Positions 20,539 through 24,259 of a DNA stretch of 57,820 nt are shown here, piece after piece. The position numbers were made by a program, and so were the translations under genes. Each line of letters opens with the position of its first letter. Positions within the stretch are counted from its first letter, which is position 1. The stretch lies in contig CADEDE010000006.1 of the NCBI GenBank assembly GCA_902825995.1, positions 1-57,820 of the forward strand, written 5' to 3'. The notes beneath the pieces are model-generated. The model did not search any database, was not told where the DNA came from, and saw nothing but the letters and a program-made list of their open reading frames with translations. This stretch comes from an uncultured Burkholderiales bacterium. Lineage in GTDB: Bacteria; Pseudomonadota; Gammaproteobacteria; Burkholderiales; Burkholderiaceae_C.

Positions 20539-20620
20539 ATCCTAGGGTCGTCCCGCAGGGGAGTTTCCCAGGGGCTTCGTGTCAGTCCCTTGTCAACAAG
20601 CAGGGCGCGGAGACTTGCAG

Positions 20621-21346
20621 GTGTTCGCTCGCAAAGTACAGCCTTCCTCGCCGTTGCAGCACCGCGTGCGCCCCGCCAGCGCCGACGAATTGCGCCGCGT
20701 ACCTTGGTGGCCGCTGCTCGATGCCGCTGCCGCCGAGCGCGTGGCCGCCGACATGCAGGTGGCCAATGCCGAGGCCGGCGAATTCCTGTGTCGCATCGGC
20801 CGGCCGGCCACGCTGTGGTTCGGCGTCATCGAAGGCTTGCTCAAGATGAGCAACGACAGCGCGCTGGGCACGCCGATCACCTTCACCGGCGTGCCCTCGG
20901 GCGCCTGGTTCGGCGAGGGCACCCTGCTCAAGCGTGAAAGCTACCGCTACAACATCGAGGCTTTACGCAAGAGCGTCGTTGCCGGGCTGCCGATCGCCAC
21001 TTTCGACTGGCTGTTGGAACGCAGCATTCCGTTCAATCGCCATGTGATGAACCAGTTGAACGAACGCCTGGGCCAATTTATCGCCGCGCGTGAAATCGAT
21101 CGCCTCACGGACGCCGATACGCGCGTGGCGCGCAGCCTGGGCGCGCTTTTCCACCCGGTGCTCTACCCCGGCGTGGGCGAATTGCTGCGCATCACGCAGC
21201 AGGAACTGGGCTACCTGGTCGGGCTGTCGCGCCAGCGCGTCAATGAGGCGCTGCACACATTGCAGCTGCGTGGCCTGATCCGCATCGAGTACGGCGGGGT
21301 GCGGGTACTGGATCTGGCGGGCTTGCAGAGCGCGCGGCCGGCCTGA
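20621..21346 (+). CDS. Crp/Fnr family transcriptional regulator
   Basis: A 241-residue regulator with an N-terminal cyclic-nucleotide-binding-like beta barrel (GEFLCRIGRPATLWFGVIEGLLKMS) and a C-terminal helix-turn-helix: LRITQQELGYLVGLSRQRVNEALHTLQLRGLI. It lacks Fnr's N-terminal cysteine cluster, and the barrel lacks an obvious cAMP phosphate cassette. GTG 20621 has GGAG 8 nt upstream; in-frame TTG 20615 and GTG 20579 are alternatives. It probably controls the divergent transporter-ligase operon through the dyad in the shared promoter region. Confidence 0.92.
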   Translation: MFARKVQPSSPLQHRVRPASADELRRVPWWPLLDAAAAERVAADMQVANAEAGEFLCRIGRPATLWFGVIEGLLKMSNDSALGTPITFTGVPSGAWFGEGTLLKRESYRYNIEALRKSVVAGLPIATFDWLLERSIPFNRHVMNQLNERLGQFIAAREIDRLTDADTRVARSLGALFHPVLYPGVGELLRITQQELGYLVGLSRQRVNEALHTLQLRGLIRIEYGGVRVLDLAGLQSARPA

Positions 21347-21361
21347 GTACACCGTGATTCA

Positions 21362-22000
21362 CTACGCCACTCGCAGGTGCCCCAGCGCCTCGAAGCGATC
21401 CATCAGAACGTGGAGGTGCGTCGACGGGTTGGGCGCGTCCACTTCGATAGCATCCTGAAGTGCGCGCGCGGCGTTCAGGCGTGCGCGACTGAACAGATCG
21501 CCTACAAGCATCCGGTCGAAGAGCCCCTGTACGTTGCCCTTGTCGTAGGCATTCATGTTGACCTGCTGTCGCAGTGCATCAGTAACTCGGTCACAGGACG
21601 ATTTCGCGCCAACGGCGTTGAACGGCGCCCGCGTGTAGTCGAAGTGCAGCAACAACCAATATTCGAAACAGGGGTAGGAAGGTACGACTGCAAGCCCGGC
21701 TTTTTCGCGCGCCATGGCGCACGCAGTGTCGAAGCTTTGGTGGCCGTTGCGGTCGATGACACAGAAAACCTCGTCATACCGGCGGCGCCGCACGATCGCT
21801 TCCTCGACGATGCCCAGTGGGTTGGTTCGTCCGCAGTGCTCAACGCGAACATGTGGCGAGGCGCGAAAGTGGCGCGCCGCGTCGTTCAGATAAGCAATTG
21901 ACGCCTTGCTGTCCTCGCACAGCACCAATACGGTCGGCTGGGGTGCGAGGCGCGCCTTGCGCCGCGCAAACGAGGCCGCGTTGCGTGCGGCCACGGTCAA
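21362..22000 (-). CDS. RloB-like (AbiLii-like) TOPRIM-type protein
   Basis: A 212-residue protein matching the RloB pattern: VLVLCEDSKASIAYLND with the Toprim-like Glu29, the FCVIDRNGH segment (Asp83, with Asn85 where a second Asp is usual), and the diagnostic YPCFEYWLLLHF near residue 105. RloB/AbiLii proteins are predicted nucleases partnered with an ABC-type ATPase in abortive-infection systems. The start is TTG 22000, overlapping the stop of the ATPase gene; GTG 21994 is an equally good alternative. Base composition is visibly less GC-rich than the flanks, suggesting acquisition. Confidence 0.85.
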   Translation of the reverse strand: MTVAARNAASFARRKARLAPQPTVLVLCEDSKASIAYLNDAARHFRASPHVRVEHCGRTNPLGIVEEAIVRRRRYDEVFCVIDRNGHQSFDTACAMAREKAGLAVVPSYPCFEYWLLLHFDYTRAPFNAVGAKSSCDRVTDALRQQVNMNAYDKGNVQGLFDRMLVGDLFSRARLNAARALQDAIEVDAPNPSTHLHVLMDRFEALGHLRVA

Positions 22001-23259
22001 CGCCCGCGCAGCACGGGCAGACCGCGGTAGCGCCCCTCGAAGTAGCGTTTCTCGATATCTTCTTCGCTGCGGCCCTTGAAGTCGTGAATCGAGTAGAGCC
22101 GCGAGGCGCCATTGGCGTCACGCTCGACAATCCAGATTTGGTCGCGGCGCAGAACTTTCGCATCCATCAAATGCGTATCGTGCGTCGTGAAAATCAACTG
22201 CTTCGGTTCACCGTTGTCAATGTGGCGCCTAACGAGGGTGGCCACAATGCTGGGATGGAGGCTGCTGTCGAACTCGTCGATAACCAGCACGTCCGTTGAG
22301 TGTTCGGACGGCGCATCCTGCAACAGTCCCCAGGGTAGTGAAAACCCAATCAGGTTCTTCGTGCCCTCCGACTCCTCGCTGAAGTCGAAGTCGGCAGTGC
22401 CCAGAGAAGTCTCGTGTGTGAGCGTCGTCCTGCGGCGGGGCCGCGTCGCCACTCTAGTCAGTGCGCCGATGTCCGGGGCGACGTCTGAAGCATCGTTCGC
22501 ATCGAGCGTTTCTGAGCGAATGCCTGTGACAGGCACATCAACCTCGCGCAACAGCGTGGCGACATTTGCGGCAATCGATGGGTGTCGTTCGAGAAGCGAC
22601 TGGACTGACTTCTGCCAATTGCTCAGGCTGACTTGCATGGCATCGAACCTTTGCGTCAACCAGCGCAATGGATGTCGAAGTTGCTGCAATTCTTCGTTGC
22701 TATTGGCTACTGCGCGGCTGAGAAACAAGACGTCCGGCGCTGTCGCCTTGCGCCAGGTTTCGTGCAGATCGGAGCCACCCTCAAGTTCGTCGCCAAATCT
22801 GTACGACTCGGCGTCTTTCGATCGCGATCTCTCGTATAGCAGCTGCGGCCGTCCCCGTGGATGCGACGTCAGGCGCTCCTCAACAATCCGCTCTCGCGTT
22901 GCTGCAACCTCCATCGAGTAGCGCACGCCCTTTTCAATAAAGTGAACCTCAAATCGGCTTGGCTCGTCAAGCAGAGCGGGATCAAAGCGAAATGGCGACA
23001 CCGGCAAGCGCGAGGGCGCCGCGCTCGGTTGCCAATGGGCCAATATTGGCAGCACCGCCATTGCCTTAACAAGATTGCTCTTGCCGGCCGCATTTGGCCC
23101 ATAAATTGCCGCGACGCGAAGTAGGTCGGGGAAGGTCTCGCCTGTCGTTGCGGCCGCCAGGGTGTTCTCCTTCTTTCGCAAGCGCGGCGCGGCCACCATT
23201 GACAGCGTTTGCCGTTCGCGGAAGGAGCGAAAATTGCTGACGGAGAACTCGATCAACAT
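21997..23259 (-). CDS. AAA15-family ATPase (RloA/AbiLi-like), defence partner of RloB
   Basis: A 420-residue SMC/OLD-like ATPase. Opening MLIEFSVSNFRSFRERQTLSM is typical of the AAA15 group. Walker A is GPNAAGKS (residues 54-61), the signature-like EGTKNLIGF lies near 300, Walker B VLVIDEFD is at about 324-331, and a switch FTTHDTHLMD follows. A central variable region (about 130-270) probably holds a coiled coil. ATG 23259 gives the canonical N-terminus. It overlaps rloB by 4 bp, so the pair is one operon. Known AbiL and PARIS systems pair such an ATPase sensor with a Toprim-type effector. Confidence 0.9.
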   Translation of the reverse strand: MLIEFSVSNFRSFRERQTLSMVAAPRLRKKENTLAAATTGETFPDLLRVAAIYGPNAAGKSNLVKAMAVLPILAHWQPSAAPSRLPVSPFRFDPALLDEPSRFEVHFIEKGVRYSMEVAATRERIVEERLTSHPRGRPQLLYERSRSKDAESYRFGDELEGGSDLHETWRKATAPDVLFLSRAVANSNEELQQLRHPLRWLTQRFDAMQVSLSNWQKSVQSLLERHPSIAANVATLLREVDVPVTGIRSETLDANDASDVAPDIGALTRVATRPRRRTTLTHETSLGTADFDFSEESEGTKNLIGFSLPWGLLQDAPSEHSTDVLVIDEFDSSLHPSIVATLVRRHIDNGEPKQLIFTTHDTHLMDAKVLRRDQIWIVERDANGASRLYSIHDFKGRSEEDIEKRYFEGRYRGLPVLRGR

Positions 23260-23359
23260 GCTGAAAAGTCGCAATTCAACGACATCGGGCGGCCATCATA
23301 GGGCCAATCCAGACTATGGAGTGCGGAAAAGCGGCAGCAAACACCGCTTTCCGTTGTCG

Positions 23360-24259
23360 CTAGGCATCGTTGCTCACGCCAGCCGCGACATGCCCGGCAG
23401 GCACATGCGCCGCGGCCGACTCGATGTGCCCGGTCTGGTCGTCGAAGAAGAAGTCGGGCTCGAACTCGCGCAGAAATTCGCCCTTGGGCAGGCCGCCGAG
23501 AAACATCGCTTCATCGACGCCGATACGCCACTCCATCAGGGTGCGGATCGCGCGCTCGTGCGCTGGCGCGCTGCGCGCGGTGACCAGCGCGGTACGCACG
23601 CGCATGGCCTGCGCGGGCGCATGTTGCAGGCGCTGCAGCGCTTCGAGCAGGGGCTTGAAGGGGCCGGGCGCCAGGGGCGTGGCCGCGCGCGCGCTCTCGT
23701 GGGCCTGGAAGGCGGCCAGGCCGGCGTCCTGATAGACACGCTCGGATTCGTCGGAGAAGAGCACGGCGTCGCCGTCGAAGGCGATGCGTACCTCGTTCGG
23801 GTGCGCGCTCGAGGCGCGTGCCGAGTCGGGATAGACGCGCGCCGCCGGCACGCCCGCGGCCAGGGCCGAGCGCACATCGGCCTCGTTGGTCGAAAGGAAC
23901 AGGTGCGCATTCAGCGGCTTCAGGTAGCGCCACGGGCTCTGGCCGCGGGTGAAGACGCCGCGCTCGATCGGTAGCCCGTAATGCTGGCAGGAGCGAAAGA
24001 CGCGCATGCCCGAGACCGGATCGTTGCGCGACAGGATCACCACTTCGACCAGCGCGGCATCGCTGCGGTTGAAGGCCAGCAGTTTGTTGACCAGCGAAAA
24101 CGCCACGCCCACCCGAGCCGGTCGTTCCAGGCGCTGCAACTGGAGCTGCATATAGGCGCGGTCGTCGCTGGCTTCGAAGACGCGGTTCTCGTCCTCGAAA
24201 TCGAACAGGGCGCGCGAGGAAATGGCGACGACCAGGCGGCCGTCGAGCGAGGTGGGCAT
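23360..24259 (-). CDS. 5'-nucleotidase (cytosolic 5'-nucleotidase 1 family)
   Basis: A 299-residue protein that resembles the 5'-nucleotidase family related to cytosolic 5'-nucleotidase IA. Segments seen: LVVAISSRALFDFEDENRVF at the N-terminus, VILSRNDPVSGMRVF, an FDGDAVLFSDESE acidic motif (about residue 158) and a C-terminal FFFDDQTGHIE. It would dephosphorylate nucleoside monophosphates in the cytoplasm. Start ATG 24259 gives MPTSLDGRLVVAIS. It stands alone between the defence pair and gspF. A near-perfect stem (GGAAAGCGG/CCGCTTTTCC) lies just after its stop but has no T-run. Confidence 0.82.
   Translation of the reverse strand: MPTSLDGRLVVAISSRALFDFEDENRVFEASDDRAYMQLQLQRLERPARVGVAFSLVNKLLAFNRSDAALVEVVILSRNDPVSGMRVFRSCQHYGLPIERGVFTRGQSPWRYLKPLNAHLFLSTNEADVRSALAAGVPAARVYPDSARASSAHPNEVRIAFDGDAVLFSDESERVYQDAGLAAFQAHESARAATPLAPGPFKPLLEALQRLQHAPAQAMRVRTALVTARSAPAHERAIRTLMEWRIGVDEAMFLGGLPKGEFLREFEPDFFFDDQTGHIESAAAHVPAGHVAAGVSNDA

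Follow-up and report, generated by a model that had tools for sequence, protein, structure and literature searches.

A probable AbiL-type abortive-infection gene pair with an altered RloB active site in an uncultured Burkholderiales bacterium

A gene for an ATPase and a gene for an RloB-family protein lie side by side in a 57,820-nt stretch of contig CADEDE010000006.1 from an uncultured Burkholderiales bacterium (this whole stretch is called the window hereafter), raising the question of whether the two form a mobile system of phage defence and whether an RloB protein with so unusual a presumed active site could serve as its effector. Our data suggest, with a probability that we place at about 0.8, that the pair is a mobile two-gene AbiL-type abortive-infection module, a reading based on the families of the two proteins, their joint inheritance, their variable presence with empty sites in related genomes, the viral setting of their relatives, and their predicted folds. 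Defence of the AbiL kind is already known; the unusual point is that the presumed killer protein has an altered active site.

The gene pair and its protein families

The two open reading frames (ORFs) were confirmed on the minus strand, adjacent and co-oriented with the ATPase gene upstream, and profiles and motif positions bore out the ATPase, the RloB protein and both Walker motifs as first described in the original prediction:

21997..23259, minus strand: AbiLi-like AAA_21 / Rad50-SMC-type ABC ATPase, 420 aa from an ATG start, presumed sensor or regulator
23077..23100, minus strand: Walker A motif GPNAAGKS (alignment A4, 51 sequences: G54, N56, G59 and K60 do not vary)
22267..22290, minus strand: Walker B motif VLVIDEFD (D328 and E329 invariant in the same 51 sequences)
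21362..21994, minus strand: AbiLii/RloB protein, 210 aa from a GTG start, presumed Toprim effector

The ATPase matches Pfam AAA_21 (1.6e-33, 117.5 bits) and its match to AAA_15 falls under that family's cut-off. The second protein scores 90 bits (2.9e-25) with Pfam RloB PF13707, whose cut-off is 31.5. PADLOC profiles identify the ATPase as AbiLi (7.4e-80) and the RloB protein as AbiLii (4.2e-17, covering part of the profile only), and all 59 members of alignment A5, the window copy included, match AbiLii. A 4-bp overlap between the genes, which the original prediction had noted, depends on starting RloB at the TTG at 22000 (212 aa). In an alignment of five sequences, the four relatives start at the codon matching the GTG at 21994, which leaves a 2-nt gap after the ATPase stop codon, the same spacing as in those relatives; the TTG start is therefore the less likely of the two.

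Predicted structures are consistent with this assignment. On re-alignment, the RloB model fits best to the Toprim domains of OLD and Gabija GajA, with E27 falling on E400 of BpOLD and D81 within one residue of D455 (counting from the first aligned residues); the fold is probably Toprim, though the margin is narrow. A sequence search of the PDB with the RloB profile returned only designed or unrelated proteins, which we took as chance matches, and found no RloB-named chain among solved structures. For the ATPase model the nearest folds are Rad50/SMC heads, and PtuA of Septu ranks second in its Foldseek list. Beyond the nucleotide-binding motifs, the C-terminal tail of the ATPase (window 21997-22050) is also conserved in the 51 sequences, with Y406 and G409 invariant and R410, Y411 and P415 nearly so; one might speculate that this segment docks RloB.

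An altered active site in RloB

The original prediction had taken CEDSK as an RloB pattern. The usual motif is CEGxxTE, and the window copy departs from it, as it does at a second presumed catalytic position:

21911..21919, minus strand: RloB motif 1, CED (usually CEG followed by TE); E27 is kept, G is changed to D, and the acid at +5 is changed to S
21746..21754, minus strand: RloB motif 2, DRN (usually DRD, the DxD of Toprim); the second D is changed to N

We counted these positions, numbered from the GTG start, in 86 RloB rows from loci with both genes, leaving out short fragments. E27, D81 and H117 do not vary in any of the 86 (in an earlier count that included fragments, one odd row departed at E27 and one at H117). 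Directly after the glutamate, 77 rows have G and 9 have D; at +5, 77 have E, 5 have S and 4 have G; and at the second acidic position of DxD, 82 have D, 2 have N and 2 have E, the window copy having N and hence lacking the DxD motif. The nine CED rows are the same nine rows that lack E at +5, and a single branch of the RloB tree separates them from the remaining rows (SH-aLRT 96; a quick tree, with the motif columns included). Because the two sets coincide and fall together in the tree, the loss of the +5 acid with the gain of an acid at +1 looks to have been inherited within a small clade, and not to be damage in the window copy.

Within the CED clade, DRN occurs in the window copy only. A second DRN RloB, at L100:1492-2112, lies outside the clade (its motif is CEG) and has an ATPase frame beside it. 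A further CED-type RloB, at L130:9245-9544, is a fragment at a contig end that was left out of the trees; since its ATPase is only 31% identical to that of the window, its CED may reflect a second origin or a swapped partner. It is conceivable, and we advance it tentatively, that the CED clade represents a class of RloB effector in its own right, having lost the acid at +5 and gained one adjoining the glutamate (and, in the window copy, also carrying DRN), that may use a single metal, be a nickase or an RNase of other specificity, or bind its target and block it without cutting. As a natural change at a presumed metal site, the CED clade offers a ready comparison for which residues of the effector matter.

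Joint inheritance, variable presence and viral relatives

An ATPase gene lies directly upstream of RloB, on the same strand, in 77 of the 87 loci retrieved by RloB searches (L044 and L084 are one place counted twice). Five of the remaining ten reach a contig end (L032, L039, L080, L101, L110) and five do not (L070, L082, L089, L111, L112). When viral loci were retrieved by the ATPase instead, an RloB frame was found beside it in 17 of 19, and a contig end truncates the remaining two. Three genomes of the family sample have the ATPase alone: in one, an RloB frame adjoins it at a contig end; in another, a weak RloB remnant of 67 codons is left; and in the third, the ATPase match contains an internal stop and the contig ends soon after. 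Two have RloB alone, both near contig starts. Distances in the RloB and ATPase trees are correlated (Spearman 0.82 over 61 of 86 pairs, the other 25, long branches or near copies, having been removed), and none of 2,000 permutations gave a value as high. One pair, L064:232-2109, breaks this co-inheritance, its RloB belonging to the CED clade and its ATPase not grouping with the clade formed by those of the other eight, and is a possible mosaic. The ATPase copy at L143:1273-2796 (G039), adjoined by only a 67-codon, weakly matching RloB remnant, is possibly a decaying pair.

The pair lies between two genes that abut in two other genomes of the genus:

20579-21346, plus strand: CRP/FNR-type regulator
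23360-24259, minus strand: 5'-nucleotidase
21347..23359, no strand: segment that separates the stop codons of the two flanking genes and is missing in two congeners

Of five genomes of the genus, four (61, 97, 89 and 78% complete) gave no RloB match, and the single match is in the genome from which the window comes. The stop codons of the CRP and 5'-nucleotidase genes are 0 bp apart in G001 and 3 bp apart in G002, versus 2,013 bp in the window. The original prediction was of horizontal acquisition and called for a search for empty sites in close relatives; a pair syntenic in all of them would have contradicted it. Empty sites were found in two congeners, universal synteny was not, and the distribution is patchy, all of which supports variable presence. 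In G003 a different segment of ~1.6 kb occupies the site (L026:1517-3097); it carries a gene for a DUF985 cupin and an unassigned frame, and because of this different cargo the junction may be a small insertion spot. The match of G004 to the window stretch that was compared was limited to 100 bp of the CRP gene, at a contig end. Acquisition of the pair at this site is the simplest reading, the alternative being loss in the other congeners. The window contains no tRNA gene; repeats around the insert are short and chance-like, and none joins its two ends; and no promoter-like or terminator-like site was found.

Composition agrees in part with the earlier claim that both genes are less GC-rich than their neighbours. 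Not one of 283 sliding 1,260-bp windows falls below the ATPase gene (58.8% GC), and third-position GC is 69% in the ATPase and 74% in RloB, versus 82-89% in seven flanking genes; the claim fails for the overall GC of RloB (62.3%), which is the same as that of a nearby ABC-transporter gene. The seven flanking proteins are of transport, AMP-ligase, CRP, 5'-nucleotidase and type II secretion kinds, none of them plasmid or phage. A link of the Rlo type to type I restriction was rejected, there being no hsd gene among these seven.

More widely, AbiL/RloB pairs are common yet patchy in the window's kin. In the family sample of 299 genomes, RloB was found in 23 and the ATPase (E up to 1e-25) in 24, with 21 genomes common to both; RloB was also found in 27 of 399 genomes sampled from the order and 27 of 369 from the class (the three samples overlap in part). 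Elsewhere the pair is rare: among 72,556 plasmid and 50,697 phage records, RloB was present in 12 and 2, respectively (the same phage twice), and the ATPase in 9 plasmid (E up to 1e-30) and 4 phage (E up to 1e-20) records.

The nearest relatives, with ATPases 49-58% and RloB proteins 43-50% identical to those of the window, are located in three Pseudomonas species and on four IMG/VR contigs. The RloB of the Pseudomonas trivialis relative has DRD. A search of IMG/VR with the RloB alignment returned the same two contigs as a search with the single protein, and the ATPase alignment added three more CED-clade contigs (L118, L120, L121) and L130. On the IMG/VR contigs, phage genes lie within ~6 kb of the pair: a terminase and a P2-type portal (L121), a portal and a head protease (L118), and a Zot-like protein (L120). 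At L119 (on the same contig as L056), a baseplate protein is next to the pair. A more distant pair resides in a Klebsiella P2-like phage between the replication endonuclease and portal genes; in P2-like phages that infect E. coli, this position has been reported as a hotspot (PMC9122126).

Defence, rival explanations and known systems

The original prediction had the ATPase sense phage and unleash RloB, a scheme drawn by analogy with PARIS. In such a scheme, the AbiLi-like ATPase would assemble as an oligomer that holds the small RloB protein in check; a phage product or activity would change the ATPase and act as the trigger; the released RloB would cut nucleic acid, either RNA such as tRNA (as AriB does) or DNA; and the infected cell would stop growing ahead of phage release. 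The window copy would be active despite its altered active site. Our literature search found no paper giving the target of RloB and no experiment on the window copy. AbiLii of Fusobacterium nucleatum is reported to be toxic in E. coli (PMC3985639), and an RloB-class toxin (D44) of Clostridium algidicarnis appears among the pairs listed as AAA-neutralised in PMC10440598. Two points weigh against an AbiL-type module, namely that AbiLii of Lactococcus is not toxic in E. coli and that the margin of the RloB fold match is narrow, and for these we lowered our confidence from 0.82 to 0.80.

The same C. algidicarnis pair, listed among those tested by neutralisation (PMC10440598), along with the 2-nt spacing and the joint inheritance of the genes, would also suit a selfish toxin-antitoxin pair, in which RloB is the toxin and the ATPase the antitoxin, kept for its own transmission or to stabilise its carrier and without specific phage defence. 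We consider this unlikely, as AbiLi of F. nucleatum is reported to have failed to neutralise AbiLii (PMC3985639), the window copy is flanked by housekeeping kinds of proteins and none from plasmids or phages, and one relative is located in a known defence hotspot. Somewhat less probable still is a decaying cassette whose RloB has lost its catalytic residues (DRN, and no acid at +5), leaving a pair that is defunct or works via the ATPase only. The window RloB does deviate at two otherwise conserved acidic positions; however, the CED change is common to nine rows that one branch sets apart, both frames of the window pair are open, the other DRN copy (L100) likewise has an open ATPase frame alongside, and the single changes D457A and E404A in BpOLD are described as having no discernible effect on cleavage (PMC6755086).

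The original prediction had named AbiL and PARIS together, and only the AbiL half stands. PARIS (AriA/AriB) shares the general plan of two genes, an ABC ATPase and a Toprim-like protein; the AriA profile of PADLOC matches the ATPase (1.7e-33, 114.9 bits), and solved AriA chains are weak matches to the ATPase profile (E 0.0048). The AriA match, however, tracks generic AAA_21 in score and covers exactly the same span, and AbiLi scores far higher. The effector is of the RloB/AbiLii family, with no AriB or DUF4435 match in Pfam or PADLOC at E up to 1, and we rejected PARIS membership as very improbable. AriA and AriB are not among the 50 structural matches listed for the models, which excludes nothing. 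It is equally hard to credit a housekeeping pair for DNA repair or recombination (Rad50/OLD-like): the ATPase model is nearest to Rad50/SMC heads, but the pair is missing in most sampled relatives, with empty sites in two, and its relatives are in a viral setting.

An AbiL-type module remains our preferred reading. Like AbiL (AbiLi/AbiLii) of Lactococcus lactis and its PADLOC relatives, the window pair consists of adjacent AAA ATPase and RloB-type genes that both match PADLOC profiles; it differs in that its RloB is of the CED clade with DRN and matches its profile in part, the likeness being drawn via profiles. The NetFlax D44 (RloB/TOPRIM_OLD):D29 (AAA) pairs, likened here by literature only, also combine an RloB-type toxin with an AAA partner, and their authors speculate that they are Abi defence systems (PMC10440598). 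PARIS likewise joins an ABC ATPase sensor to a Toprim-type nuclease effector in two genes, its effector being DUF4435 where that of the window is RloB. The Toprim domains of OLD and Gabija GajA are those that best fit the RloB model, whereas in the window the presumed Toprim part is a separate protein, without the second acid of DxD and the second acid after the glutamate. Finally, PtuA of Septu and of retrons is a related ABC-type defence ATPase, but its partner is the HNH nuclease PtuB (PMC10440598), unlike the RloB protein of the window pair.
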